Assembly (NCBI GenBank): GCA_013416795.1 | Contig: RQSC01001240.1 | Coordinates: 1 to 64,000 of the forward strand | DNA length: 64,000 nt | From: Prasinococcaceae sp. CCMP 1430 | Taxonomy: Eukaryota > Prasinodermophyta > Palmophyllophyceae > Prasinococcales > Prasinococcaceae | Direction: 5' to 3' | Shown: positions 1 to 38,476 of the stretch, in pieces | Layout: every line of letters starts with the position of its first letter | Numbering within the stretch: position 1 is the first letter of the stretch | Notes under the pieces: model-generated | Seen by the model: only the letters and a program-made list of their open reading frames with translations | Told to the model about the DNA's origin: nothing | Databases searched by the model: none | Position numbers and translations under genes: made by a program

Positions 1-390
1 AGAGGCCGGCCGCGCGCTCGCCGTCGCCGCGGGCGCGCGCGGGGGCTCGCAGCCACTCGCGGCCGCTGGGGCGGACTGCGCCCGCCGCCCGCGCCCCGCT
101 CGTCGCTGAGTCTCAGCGGGTGAGCGATCGCCGGGGATTTTTTTGTGGCAGGGTGGGTGTTCAGGTCGGGCGTAGTGGCCCACTACTAACGGGGCGAAGG
201 GAGATGGAGGCCACGCTGCCGCAGCAGCTCGCGCGCTCCGGCAGCGGGGCGCCCCCCGGCGGCGGCGCGACGCCTTCGCCTCCTGCGGGCAGCCCGCCGC
301 CGGGGGCAGCGCCTCACCAACAGCAGCACCACCAGCACCAGCCCCGCCCGCAATGGGCACCCGCGCCGCCCGCGGGAGGCAGCTACGCGC

Positions 391-448
<58 letters not shown>

Positions 449-1114
449 TGTGTGTGTGTGTACAGTCCCATCGATGGTGGTACTGTACAGTACGTAGGCA
501 TTGTGCCTGGCCGAGCATCGCGTGGAAAGGGTGAGAAAAAAGGGAGAAACTACCGACAAAACGCATGCGATCCGCCGTCATTTTTCTCGCATTGTACGCG
601 CGCGGGGGGTGCGGAAAGTCTCTACGAGTAGCCTGGGTAAAACTGGGCGCCCCGGCCAAGCGGCGCGCGCTGGAACGACTTTGAGGCGGGCGTACATCCG
701 CCTGGCGAAGCGAACGATTTTTGTGGACACCTCTGTACTGTATACACGCTGGCAGTGCGGTGTTGTACGTGTAAATGAAAGGGAAGTTTTTTTTTTTGGC
801 GCGTGTTGTGGCAGCTGGCGGCGGCGATGCTCATGTGCGTAACCTTCCTTCGTGTCGATGCGCGTGCGAATGCGCGCGCGCAAGTATGCGCATCGATGTG
901 CGCTCGCATGCATGTGCTCATGCAAGAATGAAAGTCGATCCTTGGTGCTCTCCGTCGCTAGGGGTCGGTGGCCGCGTCGTACGTATGCCTGCGGGCTGCG
1001 GCGCCGTGTCCGACTCGTCGCNGCGCGGAGGTCGTCGCAGGTGGGCGCGGCGGCGTGGGTGGCGGCTCTGCGGCGGTGCTCGTGCAGCGTCAGCGCGAGG
1101 CGCAGGTGCTCGCG
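1..1114. other. Upstream non-coding region with TG microsatellite
   Basis: I see no convincing gene here. The open frames are products of GC richness and change strand and frame freely. It contains a TG dinucleotide run, purine/pyrimidine tracts near 785-800, and a single N at 1022 that interrupts any reading frame. It probably holds the promoter and 5' leader of the WW-domain protein gene that follows. Confidence 0.5.
394..461. repeat. (TG)n microsatellite
   Basis: An almost perfect TG dinucleotide run with one interruption (gatg) near 447. It is the same dinucleotide class as the much longer AC tract at 34.7-34.9 kb. Confidence 0.95.
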
Positions 1115-2629
1115 ATGGGCGCGCACGGCGTCGACCTGGAGGGGGTGCCCCACCGCGTCAGCGCGGACGGGTCCGGCAGCCCCGGCGGCGAGGTGTCCTC
1201 CCTGTCGGGGGGGGCGCACGCGCGCGGCCACAACAGGTCGGGAACGCTCTACCGGCGAGGGCCGGGCTCGTCCGCGCGCCACAGCGGCGAACTCGCTCCT
1301 TCGTCGGGGCGCCTGGTGGAGCGCCTGTGCGCGCTGGCGTTGCTGACATTGATGGCGGTGGTGGGGCTTCTCACCTTCCATGCGCCCGACAGCGCGCTGC
1401 CCGCGCGCTACCGCCGCGACGGGCGGGGCGCCTTCGACGGCGGCGCGGGCAGCGGGCGCTCCAAGGCGGTGTACGCCCCTGGAAGTGCGCGCCGCCGCCG
1501 CGGCACTTTCGATGGCGCCGAAACCGCCCAGTACGAGGATGGCGACAAATTCACAATGGCGGGCTTCGTCGACAACTACGCCATGTCGCTCGCATCGACG
1601 ACGCGCCCCAATAAGTACATCAAGAGCCGCACTGCCGAGGCGGAGGGCGCCATGCGCTGGATGGATGTGCTCGAAGAGCGCACGCGCCGCGCTGCGGCTG
1701 TGACCGCGGCCGTCAGCGGCATCGACGACGCTCAGCGCTCGGGCGGCAACGGCAAGAAGGCGGCGCGGACGGGCGATCCCTGCAACGCCGCGAAGGCGGC
1801 CGCGCGCGACGACAGCGCGCGCTTGCGTCACTGCGAGATCCACGGCGTGCATATCGCCGCGCACTGCCCGGCGCTGTGCTTCGAGGTGGCCGCCGCGGCC
1901 ATCGAGGACGCGCAGCTCATGGACGAGCTTATGGTGGACGTCCCTATGGTCCAAGAGGCCCTGGCGCGCGCGCAGTCGGGCGTGCCGACCTGCGTAGACT
2001 TCGACACTGCGCGCTGCTTCCAGACAGCCACGACGCACTCGTGCGTGGCGTCGGAGGGCGAGGAGGCCGACCAGTGGTTCGGTGTGAGCGAGATGAGCCT
2101 CATGTGCCCGCGCACGTGCATGTGGCTCCTCATCAGCGACAGCTATCGCTTCGCCCAGTCGTACTTCGACAGCCACCACTGCGATCAAATGGCGCAGGCA
2201 GACGGAACCTTTGCCACCGTTGACAAGAACAGCTTCTACAAGTCCATGCACATGGAGATCGCCCACAAGGTCCACAAGAGTGGCGGCATCGACCTGGAGT
2301 TCGCCAGCGAGCAGCGGCGCCTCAACATCGGTCTCGCGGACGGCTGGACCGTGAAGAAGGATTTCAAGTCAAAGAAGGCCTTCTACGAGCACGTTGACGG
2401 CAAGGTGCAGTGGGACCGTCCCGAGGGGTCCGAGGCTGCGATCAGCAAGGAGCGCTTTGCGCAGTTTGAGGCCGACGCCCGCGCAGCACGCGTGAAGGCG
2501 GTCGGCACCATGACGGTGCATGATCGCATTCTGCAGCGTCTCGCGCAGGGAGACGCGGCGACGAGGAGGGCCAGCGCGCAGCAAAAGAAGGCGACGTCAC
2601 CGCCGCCGAAGTCACAGGCAAAGTCCTAA
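1115..2629 (+). CDS. Membrane-anchored Cys-rich protein with WW domain
   Basis: Single-exon open frame of about 504 residues from the ATG at 1115. An ATG at 968 is in frame but reads through the N at 1022, so I prefer 1115. Residues about 75-90 form one hydrophobic segment (LALLTLMAVVGLLTF) after a basic stretch, fitting a type II signal anchor with the rest in the lumen or outside. Two Cys-rich stretches follow, around 1780-1885 (CEIHGVHIAAHCPALC) and 1990-2130 (ending MCPRTC), resembling loose ShK-type motifs. Near 2340-2420 a WW-like domain is visible: GW, then FYEH, then WDRP, the usual Trp-Tyr-Trp-Pro pattern. WW domains bind proline-rich ligands, normally in the cytosol, so its place after a signal anchor is odd. 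The C-terminus is basic and low-complexity. I do not recognise the whole protein; the function is unknown. Confidence 0.7.
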   Translation: MGAHGVDLEGVPHRVSADGSGSPGGEVSSLSGGAHARGHNRSGTLYRRGPGSSARHSGELAPSSGRLVERLCALALLTLMAVVGLLTFHAPDSALPARYRRDGRGAFDGGAGSGRSKAVYAPGSARRRRGTFDGAETAQYEDGDKFTMAGFVDNYAMSLASTTRPNKYIKSRTAEAEGAMRWMDVLEERTRRAAAVTAAVSGIDDAQRSGGNGKKAARTGDPCNAAKAAARDDSARLRHCEIHGVHIAAHCPALCFEVAAAAIEDAQLMDELMVDVPMVQEALARAQSGVPTCVDFDTARCFQTATTHSCVASEGEEADQWFGVSEMSLMCPRTCMWLLISDSYRFAQSYFDSHHCDQMAQADGTFATVDKNSFYKSMHMEIAHKVHKSGGIDLEFASEQRRLNIGLADGWTVKKDFKSKKAFYEHVDGKVQWDRPEGSEAAISKERFAQFEADARAARVKAVGTMTVHDRILQRLAQGDAATRRASAQQKKATSPPPKSQAKS

Positions 2630-3811
2630 GCGGCGACGCAGCAACAGGCGAAACCGCAAACGGCGATGCCGCAGCAGCAGCAAACAGCGAAGGGCAAATG
2701 AGGGAAGCGCTGGCGGTGCAGCCTGAACTCACACTTACTGGCTAGAGTGCGTGCACTGAGCAAGCGCAGCCGAACCGGCGTGCAAGAAGCAAGGGCTCCC
2801 AGTGCTCCGAACGATCCGCTGCGGGGTCAGTGTGGGGCTGCCAATGGTGCGCCGGTCACTTCTGCGCAGATAGTCACGTGCGTGATCGTCGGGGGCGGAG
2901 CTTGCATAAGACGGCCATACATAAACTTATACAGCACCAACGTCCCGAGTGCTTGAGCTCTGCGCGGCCGATCACGAAGGCCCGCGCCGTGCCTAGCTGT
3001 GCCTGCGAGGCTTCGAGCGGTGCGCGGCCACGGACGTACTACTAGGCACCCGCCAGTGCCTCGTGCGGCCCAGCAGCCCGCTCAGGGCCAGCTGGTGTGA
3101 AGACCGACACCGCATGCCGCATGTGCACGTCGGCCCGGGGGTGGGCGTGGCCACACGAACGACGCCACCCCACACACTGCTTTTGCCCATTGGCATGAGC
3201 TCAGCCCATCGGATGCGGTCTTGGTGCATGTACGGTTTGCATCGACAGCATTTGCGCGTACCGTTGACGGTACGACACGACGCAGCGCGTTCCCCCGCGC
3301 GCGCGTGCGCGCGCGCGCGCTTTTCGTTTTCGCGGAGGGACGCGCGCGCGAATTCGCGCGGTGAAAGAGGTTCGATCGAATGCGGTGCGGCGCGTTTCGG
3401 CGGATGCGAAATCGTGGAGATATTTTTTGGAGATATTTTTTTTGAAAATGCGCGCGCTGAGGTGTCGTCCGCTCGCGCGCCGTTCCCCGAGCGCGCGCGC
3501 GCGCGCTGCAGCGGCAGCAGAGGGCGAGAGGAGGGGTGGGGAGCAGGGAGTGCCTCGCGCTCCGCCTGCGCGCCCCTGCGCGCGCGCGCGCCCGCCTGCG
3601 AGAGGCCGAACCCCAAGTGCGGGCGGTTGGTGCGCGGCGCCGGCCGCGGCACAGGCGCGCCCCGCCGCGGCGCCGCGCCCCTCGCCTGGGGTGCGGGCAC
3701 CGCCCCTCTCTGTCTCTCTCTGTCTCTCTCGCGTGCGCGCACGTGCCGCTCGGGCGCTCGCCCCCGCCCGCTCGCATCCTCTGGCTGCCGCTGCGCCGCC
3801 GCGCGGGGGCG
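2630..3811. other. Intergenic region without a recognisable gene
   Basis: About 1.2 kb between two + strand genes. It contains a CG-dinucleotide-rich stretch (3290-3360), a short AT island with repeated gagatattttttt (3415-3445), and a CT-rich tract (3710-3735) just upstream of the DUOXA-DUOX start. It is probably the 3' UTR of the WW protein plus the promoter of the oxidase. I see no conserved coding. Confidence 0.5.
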
Positions 3812-6800
3812 ATGGCGAGGACCGTGTTGCACACGCCCGCGGCGCCATTCGCGACAGCCGCTCTGCTCGGGGTCATCGGTGCGTTCGCGCTGCGCGCCGC
3901 GCCCCCCAGCCTTTGCATAGCTGCAACACAGCCCTCGGCGCACGTCTTCAAGCCCCCCCCACCCCCCACCCCCCACCCACCAGCCCCCCAGCCCTCCACC
4001 CTAGCTCAGTTTGCGACGCACAGTCCGCGCGCGAGGGCAGACGCCTAGGCGCTGACAGCGCATCATGTCCTTGGGACGCCGCTGCGCCTTTCTGCCGGGC
4101 GGCCTGCAGCGGCAGTCACGCTGCTGTCGTTGGCGGTGACCGGCGAGCGCTGGGCGGTCGGCTCGCTCTCGTCGCCGCTGCTCCCGCTGCGTAGCGGCGG
4201 AGGCGGCGGAGCGCTGGCCGCGCCGGGCCGCGTGACGCTCGAGGTGGGGCTGACGACCGCCACGGCGAGCGTGAGCGACATGGACGGCGCGTCCTTTCCC
4301 GCGCCCTGGCGTATGGCGGGGCTCTATCCGGACGGCGAGGGCTGCTGTGAGGCCACCGTGGCGCTGAAGGACATCGCCGGCGCAGGCGCGCGCGCGCGCG
4401 CCGCCGGAGAGGCCGACCCCGTCTGGTGGGCGCTGCAGGTGCGTGGTGCGGCGCGCGTGCGGCGCGGCGCAGTAAGGCGCGAGGCAGCGCGGCGCGGCGT
4501 CTCCTCCATTCCTCCTCGTGTGGTGTGCCAGCCGCGCCACGGAAAACAAGAAAGCGCTCCCGCCGTCCACACGGCAGCTGCGCCGGACCTTGTGCCCCTG
4601 AAAGCCATCCGCGCGGCCACCGATCACGGTCAGCGCAGCTGGCGACCGGTGGCTGACCCGCCGCGCCGCAGCACGCCACGACGCTCGCGCGCGATCCGAC
4701 AGGCGCTCGGACCGCCCTTCAAGTACGGCATTGGCTTCAGGGTCGTCGGCGTAGTCATACGCCTACTCGGCGGCGCTTCGCTCGCTGTGAGCCTCTGGAT
4801 ATTCTTCCTGCTCTGGAACAATGCGTGGTTGATGGCTACCGCCGCCGCGGCGCTTGCCGCGGCGCTCGCGGCCGGCGCGTTGGGCTTCTTCCACGGCCTC
4901 GCGCCGATGGGGCTCGAGTTCGAGGTGTCGGGTGAGCTCGTCGGCGTGCGGGCCGGCCCTAGCCACGATGCAATGATCGCCGCCGCAGCCGTCCTGGCCT
5001 GCGTGGCCGTCGCCTGTTTGGGTGCGCTCGCCGTGCGCAGCAGCAATGCAGGATCTGGTGCAAAGCCCAGCGGCTCGCCCCGTCGTTCGGCGCAGGGTCA
5101 GGGCAGCAAGTCCAAGCCCAGCGGCCCGCCCCGTCGTTCGGTGCAGGGTCAGGGCAGCAAGTACAAGCGGGCAATAGCTGCCACGGCCGCCATACTGTGT
5201 CTGGCTCTTCCGAGCGCGCACGCCGACGGCTGCCCCTTTGGCTTCGACTTGGCGAGCAGCCCGGCCGCAGCAGCGTCTCCTGATCTGGGCGCGCACCTTC
5301 GCTCCCTTCAGGCATCGAAAGGGGTCCAAGCAGGTGCCGAACCGCTCAGCTGGGGCACACGCGTCCCAGATCGTCAAGGGTACGACGGCTACGGCAATAA
5401 CGCTCTCGATGCAAGCAACGGAGCCGCAGGGGTCATGCGCCGAGCCGCACCGGCAACGTACAGCGACGGCTTCGGCCGGATGGAGTTCGCGCGCCCGAAT
5501 CCCGTGGCCGTGTCGGAGGCCATGTGCGCCGCCCCATCAGCTGCGGGTGTGCGCGACACTGGCGATAACGCGCTCAGCGATCTCGTCGTGTTTTTCGGGC
5601 AGCATATCTCGCACGAGATCGCGCACTCTGGTGGCAAGGCATGCCCAATCGAAGCGCTTCCAATCCCGAACCCGGGCCAGGCTCATATTCAGGGCAAGGT
5701 ACCCTTCCAGCGTACGCGCTTCGTCGGTGGCAAGGGCCCGAACTCGCAACGCGAGCAGCTCTCGGCGGTGTCGGCGTTCATCGACGGCTCGGCTATCTAC
5801 GGAAATACCAAAGCGCACGCAGACAAGCTGCGCGCGTACGAAGGCGGTCGCCTCGCCACGCTTGCCGACGGGGCACACGATACGGTGCATCCAGGAATGG
5901 AGACGCTCCCTCGGAGGAGTTCCGGTGGTGGCGACCCGGGCGACATCAACATGGTGAACCCGGTGCGCCGGCCGGACGGTACATATTTCGAGCTGGGCAA
6001 CAATAGGGGCAACGAAAGCCCCGGACTGCTTACCCTCCAGGTTATGTGGGTTCGGGAGCACAACAGGCACGCCGGCCGCATTGCCGCGGCAGACCCTGAC
6101 GCGACTGATGAGGAAGTCTACCAAGCCGCTCGTCGATGGACGATCGCGACGCAGCAGCGCCTCACGCTCGAGTATCTGAGTGTGCTTGGCATCGATCTCG
6201 GAGAATACGCCGGCTACGACCCGACGGTCGATGCGCGCGTCGCGAACGAATTCGCGACGGCGGCCATGCGCTTTGGTCACTCGATGGTGAGCCCCATGAC
6301 CCTCCGCGGCACCTATGTCGGCGACTCGCAGCTGGGTACGGGTTGTGCCAGTCTGCAGGAAACAGAACCGCTGCGCCTCTGCTCGCACTTCTTCTCGCCC
6401 GAGCACGTGATTGGCCCTTCGGGCTCACTTACAGCTGTTCTGCGTGGGGTGATCGGCTCGGTGGCACAGGCAGTCGATACCGTGGTAGTTGATGACCTCC
6501 GCACCTTTCTCTTCAGCCCGCCCTTTCCCACGAAGAAGCCGCGTATGGATTTGGTCGCGGTGAACATTCAACGCGGGCGTGACCACGGCCTGGCTGACTT
6601 CAACACGGTCCGGCAAGCGTATGGGCTGCCCGCCATCTCTTCGGCGCTCGATGTCACGTCTGATGCAGAGCTGGCGCAGCGCATGAATACCACGTACGGC
6701 GGGCGCGTCGCAGACACTCTGGACCTTTTCATCGGCGGTTTAGCCGAGGACCACGCAAGCGCCGATCCCGGCGCGCTGACTCAGCCGACAGCAAAGCTCG

Positions 6801-8755
6801 GTCCGACGTTCAAGGCGATCATCAAGGACCAGTTTAGACGCGTGCGCGACGGGGACAGCTGGTGGTACGAGCGCCCTGCTGCCCAGGGCGGCTACTTCGA
6901 TGATGCGGAGATTCAGCTGCTCCACGACTTCACCATGGCAGACTTTGTCGCGTTGAACGGCGACATACGTTCAGCCGAATTGAGGGACGCGGGGCTGCCC
7001 CATGGGAGCCCATTCTACGCGCCAGCGCTTGGCTGCTCGGACGCTCAATACGACCAGCTGATCGACGCAGCAGGGGAGTGTTTGGCGAAGCAGTGTGGGT
7101 ACGCACGCAACGCCGACTCGGTGGCGTGTAACGATCCTGGTCGCATGCGCCAGCAATTCTACGATTATGGATGGGGATACCTGGTCCTCACTGCGATCCT
7201 GGCTGTCTCTGTGGTCGTCGCAGTCTACGCCGGCTTCAGACGCCGCCATCGGAGCCAGAGCTTCTGGCTCACGTTTGTGTCACAGGCGGTAGTGCAACAT
7301 CTGCGGTGGTTTCAGTCTGCAGATGCGCGCGCGGCGAGAATCAAGGGCCTCGCTCAGATTGCCTGCTCGTCGCAGCCGCCCACCGACGACGACACGCAGG
7401 AAAGCGCGGAGGAAGAGGCAGCGCTTCTGGCGCTGTGGATGGAGGTGCAAGACGTCGATGATCTCGACGCGACCCTGGATAAGCTGGGTCCGGCCGAGCT
7501 TTGGGCCCGGTTGACCTCTGACGTCGTGCTGGATCGGAGCGAGCTCGCCGCTTTCCTCGGCGTGAAGCTCGACAACGCGCTGGTGTGCGCGATCTTTCGC
7601 GTGCTCGATGAGGATGAGAGCGGCGAGCTGTCGTTCGCCGAGTGGAGAGCGCTGATGCGTCTGATCGTCGGAGCGCACACAGAGAAGGGTGCGGACGTCG
7701 CCTTCGCCCTCTTCGATCGGGACGGGAACGGGGACATAGACGCCGAGGAGTTTGCGTCCGTCCTACGCGCCAACTTGCGCGAGTCAGGCATGGACGAAAC
7801 GGCTGTCGAGCGCCTCGACTTGCCTGCTCATTTCGCGCGGATAGACGTTGACATGTCGGGCTCGGTTTGCAAGGACGAATTCTGCGCTCTGCTCGAGAGC
7901 CTAGGCATGGACCCCAAGGCGAGCGTCACCCCAGGTCGCGGGACCGCTCTGGAGAGCTACCTCAGCGCGCGCGCCGAGCGCCTCAATCGCGTGCCGATGC
8001 GACAGGCGGTGGCTGATTTCGTGGCAGAGAGCACGCGCGACTTGGTCGCACTCGCTTTCCAATCGCGAAAGCTTTTGCTGCTGTTCGGTGTGTACCTCGT
8101 CCTTCTCGCCTGCATCATTTGGGAGCGCCTCGAGTACTATTATCAGATCGTGCAGCTGCGCTGGGCCTCGCAGGAGGGCGTGCCCAAGAGCCGCGTGACT
8201 GCCCAGCTCGTTGGTTTGCATTTCGCGTTCGTCTTTATTACCAAGTGCTCCCGCTTCCTCGCCGCGGTCGGATCAACACCCGTGGGATCGTGGCTGCCTC
8301 TGAGCCGGCTGCAGCTCGTGCACAACTTCGCCGGGCTCGGAGGGGCGGTCGTCGCCGCCGCGCACATGTACTACCATTTCCACAATTTCTACTACCTCAG
8401 CGAGATGATGACGCCAATGCTCAACTGCTGGTTCGGCCTGGGACTCAGCGCGGGCGAAGACCTCACCTTCGCTGGCATGATGCTTGCTGTACCGACGCTC
8501 ACGACCGGCCACCTGAGCACGGTGTTCTTCATGCTTCTGTTAGCGTTCGCATTGCCTGCTGTGCGGGCTCATGCGTACGGCGTCTTTCTGTGGGTGCACT
8601 ACCTGTCGGGGTACATTCTGGTGACCCTGCTGTTCCTGCACGGCAGCATTGAGCTCGTCCAGGAGCCGCACTTTTGGTACTTCATGATCGGGCCGCTGCT
8701 GCTCTACACGCACGAGCGACTGCGCGCTCAAGACGATGTTACTGCGCCGCCATAA
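3812..8755 (+). CDS. DUOXA-DUOX fusion: dual oxidase maturation factor joined to dual oxidase
   Basis: One open frame carries two proteins that are normally separate. Part 1 (to about 5040) looks like DUOXA: a hydrophobic N-terminus, a luminal segment (VTLEVGLTTATASV), then three membrane helices (about 4720-4800, 4830-4900, 4970-5040). A linker and an internal signal sequence (5164-5225) follow. Part 2 is DUOX: an animal-type haem peroxidase domain (about 5370-7060) with distal Gln/His in FGQHISHE, proximal His in RFGHS and NIQRGRDHG; one membrane span; three EF-hands (7600-7890, e.g. DRDGNGDIDAEEF); then the six-helix ferric-reductase core with paired His (HNF...AHMYYH; WVHY...FLHG). DUOX makes extracellular H2O2 with Ca2+ control, and DUOXA is needed for its ER exit. 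Likely introns are 3879-4058 (weak) and 4439-4702 (GTGCGT...CGACAG, 264 nt, stop-free). The frame stops at 8755, before the FAD domain. The family calls are strong; the exon 1 start is tentative. Confidence 0.88.
5063..5164 (+). repeat. 2 x 51-bp tandem repeat in DUOXA-DUOX linker
   Basis: Two 51-bp copies with few differences encode two 17-residue basic units, KPSGSPRRSAQGQGSKS and KPSGPPRRSVQGQGSKY. They lie exactly between the last DUOXA helix and the signal-like helix that opens the DUOX half, so they form the predicted cytosolic linker. Confidence 0.95.
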
Positions 8756-8756
8756 C

Positions 8757-9227
8757 TTCCGCGCTGGCGGCGACTACGCCGTCCAGAGGGCGCACCTGCT
8801 GTGGCTCGCGCCAAATCAGGCGACTTTTGACAGCCTGCGCCCAGCGCTCGAGGACCTGGAGCGCCTGGACGCTGATGAGGTGCTCCAGCTCGACTTCGCC
8901 ATCACTCGCGCAAAATCGAGCGGCGACGCGCGCGCGCTCATGCTCACGGCGGTCGACAAGTTAGACAAGGAGGGCGGCTCAGGCGGCCTGATGAACTTCC
9001 GCCGGGCCAACGTGCACTTTGGAAGCTTCAAGAGTGAACAGATCATGCGCTATCTGGCGGATGCTGTCGAGAGCGCGGGCGCTGAGCTCCAGCTCGAGGG
9101 TGGTCGCAAGCCGCGCATCGCCGTCCAGACCTGCGGTCCCACACCCATGACGGCCGCCGTTTGGTCGTCAGCGCGGTCCCTGCAGCAGCAGGGCCACTTC
9201 CTGGACGTCTTCGAAGACATCTTTTGA
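8757..9227 (+). CDS. NADPH-binding C-terminal part of the DUOX, out of frame
   Basis: Reads in a different frame from the upstream oxidase and ends at 9227. The segment HLLWLAPNQATFDSL matches the place in NOX/DUOX proteins that follows the nucleotide-binding motif. The end carries VQTCGPTPMT (family CGPxxM motif) and finishes in FEDIF, like the aromatic C-terminus typical of NOX enzymes (…xxF). The FAD-binding part (HPFT motif) and the GGxGxxP motif, together about 150 residues, are absent between the two parts, and no DNA is available to hold them. Either the assembly lost about 450 bp or the gene is broken. Confidence 0.75.
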   Translation, partial: FRAGGDYAVQRAHLLWLAPNQATFDSLRPALEDLERLDADEVLQLDFAITRAKSSGDARALMLTAVDKLDKEGGSGGLMNFRRANVHFGSFKSEQIMRYLADAVESAGAELQLEGGRKPRIAVQTCGPTPMTAAVWSSARSLQQQGHFLDVFEDIF

Positions 9228-23456: not shown

Positions 23457-25631
23457 CTAGCCTCCCCACCAATGCGCAGTCCCGGCGGCAATTTCGCACC
23501 CGCTGTATACGTTGGTGCCGGCATTGTACTGCACGCACTCGTTCATGCCGCGCAGCAAAGAGCGGCTGCGGTCGCGACATGCCCCTCGCACGACTGCAGC
23601 GGCTGCGCGTGCTGTGCGGCATTCGTGGGTCCCGTCTCCAAGCTCGGCCGCACGAAGCGCCGAGTCGCCTTCGTGGTCACCGACACGTCGGAGCAAGAGT
23701 TTGGGGACCGGGTAGAACGCCATTTCCGAGGGCTTGCAACAGAGCAAGTCGCACACGCGCGCGAGTTCATCCGTGGCCACAACAGCGCTCGTCACGTCAC
23801 CAGGAGGGAACGCGATGAGGGTCACCCGCGCGTACGTGCTGGCGACTACTTCGGCACCGTCGCCTCCTTCGGCACGCGCACGCCCACTCGCTTGCTGGAT
23901 GCGCGCGCTGTCGGCGCGCATCCTCTGCGCAAGGTCACGCACGCCCTCCATAGTATCGATGAGGTCGAGCTGCTTGTGCGCGTCGCTGAGGTCGTTTTGG
24001 GAGCCAACGAGTCCAGAAGCTACGAGCGCATCGACGAACGCTTTTTCCATGTGCGCGTGATCGCCAGCGTTGAGCACGAGTTCCACCTCGCCTGCATGCA
24101 CCCCGTCTGCGAGATGCCCGATGAGGTCGGTTATGAATTGCCTTTGTGCGCCGGCGCCCCCGACGGGAAGCAGCAAGCGCAGCGGTGCACACGCGTTGCA
24201 GCGCGCGAGACGCAACTCGCAGTCGGTGTATAGGTTGACGACCATGTCTCTCGGGACCCAATGGCCGGCCAGTGAGATGCTCTCGGGCGGCACTCCCATG
24301 CGTAGCAGCTGGTGGTACGTCGCTGGCCCTTGCACCAGGTTGAGCGCGCCCGGCACCACCACGAACCACTGTGCGTGGTTGTCGATCACGAGATTGATGA
24401 CTTTGGAAAAACCTGCGGCGACGGCCGCGAGGCCAACCAGGCAGTGCGTCGCCACTACGGGCAGATCCCGGGGCACGCCGTCCAGCAGCGGTGTGAGGTG
24501 CGCCGCTGCGATTAGTGCGGCGACGCGCAGCGCGTCAGGGTTGGCCGAACCCGCCCCATCATCGCCATCGCTGCCATAACTGCCAGCCGTCAGGGTTCCC
24601 CACATGTACTCAATCACCCCTCCCACCTCGCTCGCGACGCGCGACAAGCGCGAGTACAGTCGCTCCCCGTCCCTCAGCACGCGCACGGCCTCGGGCTCGT
24701 CGCTGCTGCCGCGCGCTCGCCCGCGCTGGCCGGCTGCAGCTGGTTGCGCGTGCACATTGAAGCTGGGGCCGTCGAAAGCGGCGCTGGGGGCGAGGAAGTC
24801 AAAGATGTAGCTGCGCCTCGGACGCACCCCAGGACATTCTGCCTCGCTAGACGCAACTCCGTTCGCATCGCTTCTGCTGTCATGGTCGCAGCACCACGAT
24901 GCCAACGCCCTGGCGATGCGCAAATGGCCGTAGCCCATGCGCATTGTCCCCACGAGCACTGCCTCGCCTGGCTCGATGCCTGCGGACGCCATCGTGAGCG
25001 GACCCAGTGCTGTGAGGTGGTCTTTGGCGGCGGCGCCCGCGTCGTCGGTCTGCAGCGCGGCGAGGAGCGGCACGAGCACCGTAGAAACTTGCCACGGCGA
25101 GAGCGCCTCCGCTGCGAGGCCATTGCGACTGAGGTCGTCGCCCTCTGACGGGGCAGCCTCATCAACGCCGAGTGGCATTGCTTGACTGCATTGTTGCGGT
25201 TGTGACTGCCTGCTTCGCGCTTGCTGTTGTGGCCCACGGGGCGTGGTGATCGTTCTGAGGAGCAGAGCGCGCAGGGCGCCCAGCGCGCCGCGCGCCACGC
25301 TGCCGGTGAGGACGCGCATGACGAGCACGCACTTGCCGCGCGTGAGCGCCGATGGGCGCCGCGGGCGACCGTCCTCCTCTCCTTCTTGCCCTGGAGACCA
25401 ACGCCCGCCAGGCTGGGCGCCCATGATGAAGTCGTCGATGTCAGCGGCGCGCGCACCGAAATCCTCCAGCAGCTCGTCGTACTCGACGCTCAGTAGCAGG
25501 ACCATCAGCAGCAGCGCCAGCAGCACTGCCCCAGCCACCAGGAGCGCGCCGACCGCCGCCGCTGCGACCGGCATCATCGCGACCGCCAGCGTCCTCGCGG
25601 CGCGCGCGAGGTCGCCCACGACGGCGTCCAT
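23457..25631 (-). CDS. Membrane glycosyltransferase-like protein, GT28/MGDG-synthase-like fold
   Basis: Single open frame of about 724 residues from the ATG at 25631. Residues about 10-60 are very hydrophobic (AVGALLVAGAVLLALLLMVL) and form one or two membrane spans. The middle has a G-x-G-H donor loop, VGTMRMGYGHLRIARALASW, then THCLVGLAAVAAGFSKVINL, IDNHAQWF, LLRMGVPPESISLAGHWVP and LRLLLPVGGAG. The order matches GT28-type enzymes such as plastid MGDG synthase (GGGH loop, D-x-H strand, G-V/I turn, then a Gly-rich loop). A C-terminal CKPSEMAFYPVPKLLLRRVG and DHEGDSALRAAELGDGTHE is strongly patterned and is probably the sugar-nucleotide site. A lipid or other acceptor glycosyl transfer on a membrane is a fair inference; the acceptor is unknown. 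An ATG further upstream is in frame, but its leader is not persuasive. Confidence 0.55.
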   Translation of the reverse strand: MDAVVGDLARAARTLAVAMMPVAAAAVGALLVAGAVLLALLLMVLLLSVEYDELLEDFGARAADIDDFIMGAQPGGRWSPGQEGEEDGRPRRPSALTRGKCVLVMRVLTGSVARGALGALRALLLRTITTPRGPQQQARSRQSQPQQCSQAMPLGVDEAAPSEGDDLSRNGLAAEALSPWQVSTVLVPLLAALQTDDAGAAAKDHLTALGPLTMASAGIEPGEAVLVGTMRMGYGHLRIARALASWCCDHDSRSDANGVASSEAECPGVRPRRSYIFDFLAPSAAFDGPSFNVHAQPAAAGQRGRARGSSDEPEAVRVLRDGERLYSRLSRVASEVGGVIEYMWGTLTAGSYGSDGDDGAGSANPDALRVAALIAAAHLTPLLDGVPRDLPVVATHCLVGLAAVAAGFSKVINLVIDNHAQWFVVVPGALNLVQGPATYHQLLRMGVPPESISLAGHWVPRDMVVNLYTDCELRLARCNACAPLRLLLPVGGAGAQRQFITDLIGHLADGVHAGEVELVLNAGDHAHMEKAFVDALVASGLVGSQNDLSDAHKQLDLIDTMEGVRDLAQRMRADSARIQQASGRARAEGGDGAEVVASTYARVTLIAFPPGDVTSAVVATDELARVCDLLCCKPSEMAFYPVPKLLLRRVGDHEGDSALRAAELGDGTHECRTARAAAAVVRGACRDRSRSLLRGMNECVQYNAGTNVYSGCEIAAGTAHWWGG

Positions 25632-25913
25632 CGTCCTCTGCTTCGACGATGGAGCTCGCGCAGATGGCGCGCGTCCGGCGCGCGCCGCGTCCGGAGCGCG
25701 GCGCGCGCGCGCTCTGCCGCCTGGCGCGCCCTCGTGCGGTGCGTGCGGACACCGCACACCCTCCGCCTGACCGCACATGCATGTGCCCCCCGTCGCCAAC
25801 AGCCCACCGCCGCTGCCGCTGCCGCTGCCGATGCGCTGCACTCCGAGCTGGCGCACTCAGCGCACTGCCTCATCGTCATGGTATCGTGTGACCATACGTC
25901 GTCTTCCCGGAGC

Positions 25914-34943: not shown

Positions 34944-35326
34944 CACACATGCACGCAACGCACCAACAACCGCGGCAAACCTGCGGAGTTGTTTTTCGGA
35001 GGCGATTTCCGATGGGTCGGTCCCGATGTGATGTGACGTGGGCTCTCTTATTGGTGGCGCGTGTGCGAGCGAGTGCGCGAGCGGCACTGAGTGCGTGCGG
35101 CGCCGGTGCCTGAGAGAGCCTCTGGACGTCGGCGCCGCGACGAGGGGCCACAGCGCGGGCGCGGGGCGGTGCAGGTGGGTGTTGGCGGGGGCGGGGGCGA
35201 GGGCGGGGAGGGGAGGGGAGGAGAGGGGACGGGAGGGGAGGGGGGAGCGGCGTCGGAGAGCCGGCGTCGGGACCTGGTGGGCTCGTGGCCGTCGCAGCGG
35301 GTGCGGCACTTGGCGAGCGGGCGGCG
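33850..35326. other. Divergent promoter region with AC microsatellite and gap
   Basis: About 1.5 kb between the divergently transcribed ABC1 kinase and H-NOX kinase genes. It contains C-rich and CT-rich tracts (33870-34140), A-rich tracts (34325-34335, 34420-34445), the AC microsatellite with a gap and a G-rich GGGGAGG/GGGCGGGG stretch at 35190-35250. No convincing coding sequence. Confidence 0.6.
34738..34941. repeat. (AC)n microsatellite with 37-N gap
   Basis: At least 83 AC units on each side together of a 37-N gap (34825-34861). The real length is therefore unknown. It lies about 400 bp upstream of the H-NOX kinase start. Confidence 0.98.
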
Positions 35327-38300
35327 ATGTACGGGTGGATTCACCAGTGCGCGGAGGACCTGGTGTGCGGCCGCTTCGGCCACGACGCGTGGGCGCGCAC
35401 GCTGCTCGAGGCAGGCTTCTCGCACGTCGGCCATGGCGGCTGGATCCGCGAGAAGTACTACGACGACTCGGTCATCTACTCGCTGGTGGCGGGCGCCTCA
35501 AAGGCCCTCGGCATCACCCAGGTGCAGGTGCTGGGGGCCTTCGGCACGCACTTCGTGCACTTCGCGGAGAAGGCCGGGTATGGCAAGCTCATGAGGAGCA
35601 TGGGGGAGACCCTGGAGGATTTCTGCGATGGGCTGGACCGCATGCACCGACATCTGGCGAAGACCATGCCCGACATCGTCTTTCCCGCATTCTGGACGTC
35701 GCGAGATGCGGTCGGGGGTGAAGAGCGCCTCCTCGTCCACTACTCGTCGCTCAGGCCTGCACTCGCGCCCATGGTCGAGACCATACTCGTCGAGGTGGGT
35801 GCCTTGTATTTCGACACGCGCGTGAGCGCATCCATCGTGAAGCCGCAGGAGCTCAACGAAGCCACCGGGGAGTACGAGAGCACCATCGCAGTCGTCGCTG
35901 AGAAGGAGGAGACGCCATCCAAATCGGTCGACAAGAAGCTCTTTCGAGCGAGATCTGGCAACGCGAAGGATGGCGAGGGCACCGCGGCCGACGCCAACGG
36001 GCATGGCGCTGCTGGCAACGACATCCTGCGCTGCCCGTTCTCGGGCGCGACGATCCAGTCCTCGTCCCTGCACGAGGGTAGTGCTACTACCGCCGGAGCT
36101 TCCTGCCCCGTGGCGACGAAAGCACGTGGTGGCCTGGCGCCCCGCTCGCCCGAAGCATCATCCGCCGCGCAGGCTGACTCGGAGTCCTCCGTGCTGAGAT
36201 GCGATGCACCGGAGGCGGAACGAGGAGATGCGCAGCTGGCCGCCGAAGAGGTACTCAAGACGCTCCCCTACCACATCATGCTATGCGACGACACCATGGG
36301 AGTGAAGAGCGCCGGTCGCGAGCTGAAGAGGATGTACGCCGGGCTGCACTGGCGAGGCCCCCCGACGCCAATGCCCGTCGCCAAGGACTTCTTTACCGTC
36401 ATCCATCTCTCGCACACCGTCGCCCACCACCGCGTCCACCCTCCGCAAAACGAGCCAGAGGAGGGCACCCTCGAGCCTGACCGGACGCAACTCCTGACGG
36501 TCGCCGAGCAGCGGAGCGAGTTCGTGGACGCGGTGGGGAGGTCCGAAAGCGGCGTCGCGACGATCGAACTCGCAGCACGGACCAAGCTGCCCGGGGCGAC
36601 TCACCACCTGCGGCTTAACGGCCAGCTGTCTCGGCTCAGCAATGGCGACTGGCTGTTTCACGGAGTCCCTGCCGTCCTGACGGTGGAGAGCCTGCTCAAG
36701 CAAGGCCTCTCGCTCAACTGCCTGCCAGCGTACGCTTCGGGATTGGACCTGCTCATGGTCGGCGAGAGCATGTTTAGGGCCAACGAGGACGCCAAGGCGC
36801 AGTTTTTGGAGCGCGATCGCGCGGCCACGCGTGCCACCAACGCGAGGCTGGCGACTGCGCTACAGTATCTGTCGCACGAAGTCAGGAACCAGCTGGCGCC
36901 GGTCGAGGCGCTCGTCAGGACACTGCCTCTGGACGACGTAGGCGGGCGGGCGGCGTCGGACCGCGATGAGATCGTCACATCCCTACGCACTACGAGTGAC
37001 ATCCTGAATTCCGTCCTCGCGATCGCTAAGCTGACCGCCGGGACAATTGATGCGCCGCATTCGGTGTTCTCGCTCGCTTCGCTCGTCCACGCCACCGATA
37101 GCTACGCTGTCGCCAGCGTCGAGCGCAAAGGCCAGGACGTCATGCTCGAGAGCAAGCTGGTGATGAACACTGCAGACCGAGGCTGCATCGAGGTGCCAGT
37201 TTCGTCGTCCTACGAGGAGACGACAAAGGTGCCCCATCTCGATGAGCTGTATGTCTGCAGCTGCAAGTCATGGCTGATGCAGATCATCGTCAACCTGATC
37301 AGCAATGCGACCAAATTTACTGACCAAGGCGGCATCTTTCTTTCCTGGCGGATTGACGAGTGCGCCCCGGGTGCTAGCCGCAGCGGCAACGGCGCTAGGG
37401 ATGGGGTTGGGAGCGCGGCCATTGCCGATCCGACCACCAGTGCGAGCGTGGCGACAGAAGACTCGACAGCAGCGGAGGACACCGCCCCGCTCCGAAGCGA
37501 TGCACCCGCCAGGCAAGATGGCGCCGAAGCAGGCGGGGAGGTGGTCTCGACGTCTACTACTAAGGCTGCTGCAACCATCCCAGTCGGCGGTGGCATGCGC
37601 ACTTCCACGTGCGAGTGCGGCGGCTCATCAGCGGATGGCCCGGCGAAGGATGACGACCGCGTTTTGCTCTCGTTGACCGTGACCGACACGGGCTGCGGCA
37701 TTCGACCCGAGGACCTGTCCATTGTGATGGAGGAGTTCGGTCGCGTACGCACGGGCTCCTCCAGCCAGAGTGGCACTGGCCTCGGTTTGCCGCTCGCGAA
37801 GCGCATGATCGAGACGCTCGGGGGCACCCTTGAGCTGGAGAGCGAGTACGGTGTGGGAACGTCCATAACCATCACGATCTCTCTGCCTCGCATGCAAGAG
37901 CCCGCCGCCGACGACGCCAGTCGCCTTGACGTCTTTCAGGGCATCGAGCAGGCCGCCATTGACGCCATGGACCATTCTGATGCGTTGGATGCTGACGTGC
38001 TTGGGGTCGACGACAACAGTCTGCTCCTAAAGATGTACGCGCGGAAAGCGTTGAAGAGCGGACTCAGCTTCAAATCGGCCTCCGATGGTGACGCTGCCGT
38101 CGAGCTCGCACGCCAAGGCAAGCGCTACGGAATCGTTCTTATGGACAAGCAAATGCCCGAACTCACGGGAGATCTCGCATGCTCCTCAATGCGGCAGCTC
38201 GGATACAAGGGACTGGTCGCGCTGGTCACAGCGGACAACATGTCGGGAGAAGAGAAGGACAAGCTCATCTGCGAGTTCGGCCTCAATATGGTGCTCATCA

Positions 38301-38476
38301 AGGGCGAGGCGCCCTCGTGGATGGAGTGTCTCGACGCGTGGTCCAAGGGCAAGAAGGAAGCGCTGGCTTCCAAGCGGCAAACCGCGCCGCACGACCGGTC
38401 GCTCAACCGGACCCAGCCCCGAGCCGATCGCAGATCCTTCCGAGGTTTGTGCAAGTCACACTCTGTGGCGTTCTGA
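35327..38476 (+). CDS. H-NOX/HNOBA hybrid histidine kinase: nitric-oxide sensor with receiver domain
   Basis: One 1049-residue frame. Residues 1-185 are an H-NOX haem domain: MYGWIHQCAEDLV start, proximal haem His in DRMHRHLAK, and the YxSxR motif (HYSSLRPAL) that holds the haem propionates. This is the NO-binding module of soluble guanylyl cyclase. After a linker, LPYHIMLCDDTMGVKSAG and FFTVIHLS to LDLLMVGESM fit the HNOBA (PAS-like) domain. A helical coil leads into a histidine kinase: LSHEVRNQLAPVEAL (phospho-His), IVNLISNATKFTDQGG (N box), VTDTGCGI and SGTGLGLPLAKRM (G boxes). A receiver domain ends it: VDDNS (acidic pocket), IVLMDKQMPELTG (phospho-Asp), VTADN and VLIKGEAP (Lys). The start at 35327 is fixed by the canonical N-terminus. 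No membrane segments, so probably cytosolic. The output partner is likely a phosphotransfer protein elsewhere. High confidence in the architecture. Confidence 0.95.
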   Translation: MYGWIHQCAEDLVCGRFGHDAWARTLLEAGFSHVGHGGWIREKYYDDSVIYSLVAGASKALGITQVQVLGAFGTHFVHFAEKAGYGKLMRSMGETLEDFCDGLDRMHRHLAKTMPDIVFPAFWTSRDAVGGEERLLVHYSSLRPALAPMVETILVEVGALYFDTRVSASIVKPQELNEATGEYESTIAVVAEKEETPSKSVDKKLFRARSGNAKDGEGTAADANGHGAAGNDILRCPFSGATIQSSSLHEGSATTAGASCPVATKARGGLAPRSPEASSAAQADSESSVLRCDAPEAERGDAQLAAEEVLKTLPYHIMLCDDTMGVKSAGRELKRMYAGLHWRGPPTPMPVAKDFFTVIHLSHTVAHHRVHPPQNEPEEGTLEPDRTQLLTVAEQRSEFVDAVGRSESGVATIELAARTKLPGATHHLRLNGQLSRLSNGDWLFHGVPAVLTVESLLKQGLSLNCLPAYASGLDLLMVGESMFRANEDAKAQFLERDRAATRATNARLATALQYLSHEVRNQLAPVEALVRTLPLDDVGGRAASDRDEIVTSLRTTSDILNSVLAIAKLTAGTIDAPHSVFSLASLVHATDSYAVASVERKGQDVMLESKLVMNTADRGCIEVPVSSSYEETTKVPHLDELYVCSCKSWLMQIIVNLISNATKFTDQGGIFLSWRIDECAPGASRSGNGARDGVGSAAIADPTTSASVATEDSTAAEDTAPLRSDAPARQDGAEAGGEVVSTSTTKAAATIPVGGGMRTSTCECGGSSADGPAKDDDRVLLSLTVTDTGCGIRPEDLSIVMEEFGRVRTGSSSQSGTGLGLPLAKRMIETLGGTLELESEYGVGTSITITISLPRMQEPAADDASRLDVFQGIEQAAIDAMDHSDALDADVLGVDDNSLLLKMYARKALKSGLSFKSASDGDAAVELARQGKRYGIVLMDKQMPELTGDLACSSMRQLGYKGLVALVTADNMSGEEKDKLICEFGLNMVLIKGEAPSWMECLDAWSKGKKEALASKRQTAPHDRSLNRTQPRADRRSFRGLCKSHSVAF

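Follow-up and report, generated by a model that had tools for sequence, protein, structure and literature searches.

A DUOX-like gene of a prasinodermophyte alga, joined in frame to a front membrane module that may be a diverged DUOXA

We analysed a stretch of 64,000 nucleotides (the window; positions 1 to 64,000 of contig RQSC01001240.1, assembly GCA_013416795.1) from Prasinococcaceae sp. CCMP 1430. Near its beginning lies a gene whose long open reading frame holds, in this order, a four-helix membrane segment, a basic linker, a signal-like helix, a haem peroxidase of the kind found in dual oxidases (DUOX), EF-hands and reductase helices (Table 1). DUOX is usually regarded as an animal enzyme. 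A preliminary description of this DNA had read the gene as DUOX fused to its maturation factor DUOXA.

Gene structure, domain order and relatives

Frame 2 is stop-free from 4049 to 8755, bounded by a TAG (4046-4048) and a TAA (8753-8755), and joins the hydrophobic helices to the animal-type haem peroxidase; the open reading frame at 4130-8755 encodes 1541 residues. The proposal that a single open frame covers both halves is thus borne out for their stop-free contact, but not for the whole gene. The ATG at 3812 joins frame 2 only via an intron, because the TAG at 4046-4048 intervenes; acceptors compatible with the phase lie at 4058, 4109 or 4115. Furthermore, the segment 4439-4702 is itself very probably an intron, its negative codon score being flanked by exons scoring +0.41 and +0.40. 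Since this intron contains no stop, part of the single open frame would be intron read-through. We infer from the sequence that both introns are removed from the front part.

Table 1. Features of the gene (positions in the window)
Feature	Position	Strand	Evidence
Probable exon 1 (start codon and first half of helix 1, MARTVLHTPAAPFATAALLGVI)	3812..3878	+	ATG; phase-matching donor GTGCGT at 3879; codon score +0.19
Probable intron 1, containing stop TAG 4046-4048	3879..4109	+	Codon score -0.22
Probable exon 2 (remainder of helix 1 and luminal segment)	4110..4438	+	Codon score +0.41, frame 2
Very probable intron 2, stop-free, phase 0	4439..4702	+	GTGCGT...CGACAG; codon score -0.30
Helices 2-4 of the front membrane module	4703..5045	+	Hydropathy; codon score +0.40; P0002 78/82 identical from SLWIFF on
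Basic, putatively cytosolic linker, 17-residue unit twice	5063..5164	+	Sequence; codon score -0.20, best of three frames
Internal signal-like helix AIAATAAILCLALPSAHA	5171..5224	+	Hydropathy; P0002 15/18 identical
Animal-type haem peroxidase domain, DUOX kind	5378..6970	+	PF03098, 2e-110; trees; haem residues
EF-hand region	7547..7954	+	PF00036, 9.8e-16, three stretches; DUOX1 alignment
Ferric-reductase-type transmembrane domain	7982..8716	+	PF01794, 5.6e-4; only DUOX1 matched in PDB
Divergent tail RLRAQDDVTAPP and stop past the break, FAD domain absent	8717..8755	+	Comparison with P0001 and P0002
NADPH-binding domain piece, different frame	8718..9227	+	PF08030; codon score +0.48 in that frame

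The Pfam scan of the frame matched An_peroxidase, EF-hands between the peroxidase and the reductase helices, and Ferric_reduct, the last with 20.4 bits and below its cut-off of 28. Against solved structures, the peroxidase scored best with 8s6c (named lactoperoxidase; 233 bits) and reached 208 and 198 bits with DUOX1. The EF-hand part aligned with DUOX1 and likewise with many calmodulins, whereas the reductase helices, with E allowed up to 10, had no PDB match other than the two DUOX1 sequences (2.3e-7). By this alignment all four haem histidines of the reductase are present; those of the fifth reductase helix (window 8591-8644) are spaced 14 apart, versus 13 in DUOX1.

A protein search with the whole frame returned three proteins: P0001 (99% identical, 1601 residues, 18 member sequences), P0002 (92% identical, 1367 residues) and one nematode protein. 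P0001 and P0002 come from other contigs (9325 and 8659 bases), and both cross the junction of the two halves in frame, P0002 with a single 17-residue unit in the linker. The in-frame contact described earlier is, therefore, seen in the window and in two database relatives. P0001 retains the letters of intron 2, and is thus genomic rather than transcript evidence. P0002 has an additional histidine adjoining the first haem histidine of the fifth reductase helix. No relative was found among the viral contigs searched, and in this genome (24.5 Mb in 145 contigs) the sole full-length match of the frame was the frame itself.

Kinship, haem site and broken end of the DUOX half

A search with the peroxidase alone gave 105 proteins, with 8000 candidates scored. 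In a tree of 104 peroxidase domains (the query and 103 of 106 domain hits, low-coverage ones omitted), three algal rows grouped with 21 animal DUOX, with a value of 99 in the Shimodaira-Hasegawa-like approximate likelihood ratio test (SH-aLRT); one of the rows counted as animal DUOX, P0124, is an unnamed protein from a metagenome that bears the title 'dual oxidase' and was placed there by our own label. In a tree of 51 of these 104 rows, from which long branches and near copies had been removed by hand, two algal rows grouped with 14 animal DUOX with a support of 100/98. On the 51 rows, approximately unbiased (AU) tests rejected two other placements: with the FG-GAP clade, to which the alga's other peroxidase belongs (p 0.0004), and with 19 rows that we took as bacterial and that are mostly unnamed (p 0.008). 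Weighing against this placement, the algal branch is long (about 1.04 in the 51-row tree) and so is the animal DUOX stem (0.63), so that long-branch attraction is possible; by path length, the nearest non-algal rows were bacterial or unnamed (P0125 and others).

A first hint that the DUOX layout might have arisen by grafting came from the alga's own FG-GAP peroxidase, which is 42% identical, and from the higher score of lactoperoxidase than of DUOX1 (233 versus 208 bits). Convergent origin of the layout was, however, rejected, as the trees and the AU tests place the peroxidase with animal DUOX. Domains, reductase match and trees agree on the DUOX peroxidase half that had been described, and the DUOX identity of the second half appears solid on sequence grounds. 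The other peroxidase of the genome (L002, G000:C130:570-5066, 1-3318) is also of the animal haem type and carries FG-GAP and UnbV/ASPIC domains.

The haem site of the peroxidase, whose residues are named after those of myeloperoxidase, has Gln, His and Arg on the distal side and His and Asn on the proximal side; in P0002, Lys replaces Gln. The distal His occurs in none of the 21 animal DUOX rows (Glu in 16, Asp in 4, Ala in 1). The proximal His, in contrast, occurs in all 21, and Asn in 18 of them; human and mouse DUOX1, which stand outside these 21 rows, have Ser at the proximal position in structure alignments. A green-alga DUOX that retains the distal haem His is, in our judgement, a firmer finding than the bolder one of a fusion with DUOXA. 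One family does not fit the kinship: of the 21 animal DUOX rows, 20 have PF26659 listed, and P0001 and P0002 do not.

In the window copy the frame breaks at 8717, where it reads 'YTHERLRAQDDVTAPP' and then a stop, and both relatives read 'YTHEKLHYW...'. The TAA at 8753-8755 is not the natural C-terminus, for both relatives continue with 'KLHYW...' after 8716. Past the break, a piece of the NADPH-binding domain matches PF08030 at 8736-9224 (9.2e-4; 19.7 bits, just below the cut-off of 22.2) and aligns weakly with DUOX1 (E 0.48). A FAD domain was found by the Pfam scan in none of the window copy, P0001 and P0002, which together with the break counts against a complete DUOX. The relatives' tail, sought elsewhere in the genome, was not found (best E 0.35); a search of the genome with an amphioxus DUOX reported no FAD-region match for this gene; and a whole-genome profile search with PF08022 was empty, a result of little weight as that search had no working control. 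The missing FAD and NADPH domains are probably due to a break or misassembly in the window and to an intron in the relatives, whose frames possibly end there, before the FAD domain; as to the break itself, we cannot tell misassembly from a broken allele. We file the window copy as DUOX-like, and not as a complete DUOX, because it shows no FAD domain and has its NADPH piece in another frame and below the cut-off.

Could the window copy, then, be a dead or misassembled gene, in which the fusion is merely a relic or an artefact? The frame break, the missing FAD domain and the failure to find the relatives' tail or a FAD-region match in the genome are what such a gene would leave. The break, however, lies 3.5 kb away from the junction, and P0001, with its 18 member sequences, and P0002 have the junction without the break; the haem residues are intact, and the NADPH piece retains its coding character. 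We hold this explanation to be very unlikely.

Animal contamination was rejected as a source of the gene. The protein falls outside animal DUOX in the trees, its GC (guanine and cytosine) content is like that of other loci, and the contig carries a haem-NO-binding histidine kinase with a response regulator (NO, nitric oxide), a type that animals are not known to have. This kinase lies in one frame at window 35285-38476 (plus strand; HNOB 8e-30, HNOBA, histidine-kinase ATPase, response regulator) and is probably an NO-sensing hybrid kinase. The genome also has 22 matches to chlorophyll a/b-binding proteins, which mark it as that of an alga, most likely Prasinoderma or something close to it. Another frame of the window (23457-25856, minus strand) combines DUF6938 (7.6e-65) and DUF6937 (6.2e-19), both of unknown function. 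Elsewhere in the genome, a reductase/NOX-like frame (L017, G000:C105, 35273-35881, minus strand; DUOX match 5.4e-8, NAD_binding_6 1e-6) is possibly the alga's other NOX, and kynureninase and 3-hydroxyanthranilate dioxygenase share one frame (L012, G000:C73, 675050-675496, minus strand); a fusion of the latter two enzymes is described for Prasinoderma coloniale in an excerpt of PMC7455551.

The junction and the front membrane module

Both parts of the junction that had been pointed out earlier are present: the 17-residue basic unit stands twice, at 5063-5113 and 5114-5164 (51 bp each), and is followed by the signal-like helix. In the spliced model the linker comprises 45 residues, with 11 Lys or Arg and no Asp or Glu, and the helix begins at residue 289. 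Similarity to DUOX starts about 40 residues past the helix (at 'EPLSWG'), and the internal helix thus stands approximately at the position of the DUOX signal peptide. It ends in AHA-D, a predicted signal peptidase site that fits the -3,-1 rule. Outside the indel, 24/28 linker residues are identical in P0002; identity is 50/51 in the stretch up to the peroxidase, 486/531 in the peroxidase and 237/255 in the reductase. Together with the values for helices 2-4 and the internal helix (Table 1), these indicate that the portion of the front module covered by P0002 is conserved as well as the enzyme.

The alternative to one gene would be two close genes or transcripts, one for a membrane protein ending near 5050 and one for a DUOX started in an unseen upstream exon, in frame contact by accident in a GC-rich genome. 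Codon scores at the junction are slightly non-coding (-0.14 for the linker and -0.19 for the pre-peroxidase stretch, frame 2 still being the best of three), which tells against a continuous coding sequence and for two genes; so does the second frame that is also stop-free across the linker, and intron 2 shows that stop-free introns exist here. Yet a separate DUOX would lack a start in the window, where the in-frame Met at 4973 (fourth helix; residue 223 in the spliced model) is followed by no other before that at 5435 (inside the peroxidase; residue 377); P0002 likewise has none between the fourth helix and the peroxidase. Only about 120 bases separate helix 4 from the signal-like helix. Moreover, P0002 stays in frame at the junction although its length there differs by precisely 17 residues, and the 51 residues before its peroxidase are nearly all the same. 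Stop-free frames are cheap at the window's GC content of 67.0%, but a junction that recurs in a relative of 92% identity, altered in length by exactly one unit, makes chance contact appear unlikely, and we regard two separate genes as unlikely.

Whether the front module is DUOXA is a harder question. By hydropathy, the spliced front part has hydrophobic helices at residues 14-32, 149-167, 175-193 and 223-241, giving the DUOXA-like order of one helix, a luminal loop and three helices. Animal DUOXA has five membrane helices and a luminal N-terminus; the algal module is thus one helix short, and an unseen upstream exon possibly holds the fifth. A few motifs occur at places that match DUOXA: W-x-V-G after helix 1, V-[ST]-x-[DE]-V-G-L in the loop, D-P-V before helix 2, [YF]-R-x-x-G at helix 2 and G-P before helix 4. 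They were chosen by eye after the fact, and serve as leads only.

Besides the helix count, most sequence comparisons speak against DUOXA, the shuffle tests being borderline to negative. The hidden Markov model (HMM) of the family, PF10204, gave no match, whether to the unspliced frame, searched to E 1, or to P0001, P0002 and two spliced versions, searched to E 10, and the luminal segment encoded by exon 2 matched no Pfam family above cut-off. The spliced front part found no solved DUOXA in PDB (E up to 10), whereas a fly DUOXA sequence found both solved DUOXA1 at 2.6e-42 and 1.3e-41. Whole-genome searches with the PF10204 profile and with insect DUOXA found nothing; both lacked a working control, and the profile search carries little weight for it. 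We also built a DUOXA profile from 120 listed of 304 hits (arthropods where named) and two PDB fragments. Its HMM gave the front module 5.2 bits, a score reached by 16, 25 and 28 of 2000 shuffles; after reweighting the figures were 21 and 11 of 2000, and with a two-sequence vertebrate HMM 50 and 24 of 2000. One variant (fam2) gave no score for the real sequence. In semi-global profile alignment, 247 and 255 out of 300 shuffles attained the real score; when 12 settings were combined with two kinds of shuffle, between 7 and 323 of 400 did so. With hhalign the score was reached by 171/200 shuffles in global and by 22/200 in local mode. AlphaFold models of the front part without splicing and of the exon for the luminal segment had a pLDDT (predicted local distance difference test) of 37.6 each, too poor for a judgement on the claudin-like fold of DUOXA.

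The DUOXA assignment thus keeps its topology, its position before DUOX and weak motif matches, but loses the expected family or structure match. The missing HMM match lowers the claim and is still compatible with a fast-evolving homologue rich in Ala and Gly. We see nearly equal chances for and against a genuine DUOXA that has diverged, most of the weight coming from the gene context. The module may instead be an unrelated four-helix membrane protein, an extra anchor of the DUOX that is neither DUOXA nor an escort. The same missing matches, the fourth rather than fifth helix and the weak or negative profile tests suit such an anchor; on the other hand, the module adjoins DUOX, has helices and loop in the DUOXA order, reaches local HMM scores that few shuffles attain (11 to 50 of 2000), and bears its motifs at the matching places. 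We consider this alternative a substantial possibility, if not one we would choose.

Interpretation and comparison with known systems

The reading we favour, with some confidence, is a DUOX outside animals that is fused at its N-terminus, in frame and in one gene, to a four-helix membrane module, most likely an escort and its enzyme made 1:1 and assembling in cis. The N-terminus would lie in the cytosol, followed by helix 1, the luminal loop, helices 2-4 and the basic linker; given a cytosolic N-terminus, the linker would be cytosolic as well, and the internal helix, a former DUOX signal peptide, would lead the chain back into the lumen and so put the peroxidase on the same side as in DUOX. 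The luminal haem peroxidase would then be followed by one helix, cytosolic EF-hands and the electron-transfer helices. Such a protein would most likely be a calcium-controlled generator of H2O2, equipped with a peroxidase and a membrane escort of its own. The fusion would fix the stoichiometry whether or not the chain is cut.

More tentatively, the DUOX-DUOXA pair may predate animals or have moved between lineages; the prasinodermophyte would have it as a single polypeptide with an internal start-transfer helix and a retained distal His, a working oxidase and peroxidase with its own escort. A green-alga DUOX with both distal and proximal His would show the state before the loss of the distal His in the animal DUOX examined, and would make the role of the peroxidase domain testable. 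Should the front module prove to be DUOXA, the fusion would be a 1:1 complex from the outset and would place the origin of the partnership far back in time. In open-licence PubMed Central (PMC) literature, searched by title and abstract start, we found no DUOX in Prasinoderma and no DUOXA-DUOX fusion. The excerpted text of a 2022 NOX survey gives only unclassified NOX-like proteins for Chlorophyta and places DUOX among metazoan enzymes (PMC9421330); prasinodermophytes may lie outside its sampling.

Among known systems, the FG-GAP haem peroxidase of the same genome shares the An_peroxidase domain (the 42% identity extends over residues 406-916), but differs in its FG-GAP/UnbV domains, matches no EF-hands or reductase and clusters with other FG-GAP peroxidases. 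Animal DUOX1/DUOX2 (7d3e, 6wxr) have luminal haem peroxidase, helix, EF-hands and reductase helices in the same order as the algal protein. Unlike them, the algal protein has the in-frame front membrane module, the distal haem His, the wider histidine spacing in the fifth reductase helix and no listed PF26659, and a FAD domain is not seen in its window copy. The front module resembles DUOXA (PF10204; 6wxr_B, 7d3e_B) in its helix, luminal segment, three helices and cytosolic tail, in having DUOX as partner and in a few motifs that come in order, and differs from it in the lack of an HMM or PDB sequence match and in having one N-terminal helix fewer than the usual five. In animals, as the preliminary description had it, DUOX and DUOXA are separate genes; according to excerpts of PMC10282587 these are placed back to back and their proteins form a heterotetramer, whereas in the alga the module and DUOX are fused head to tail.

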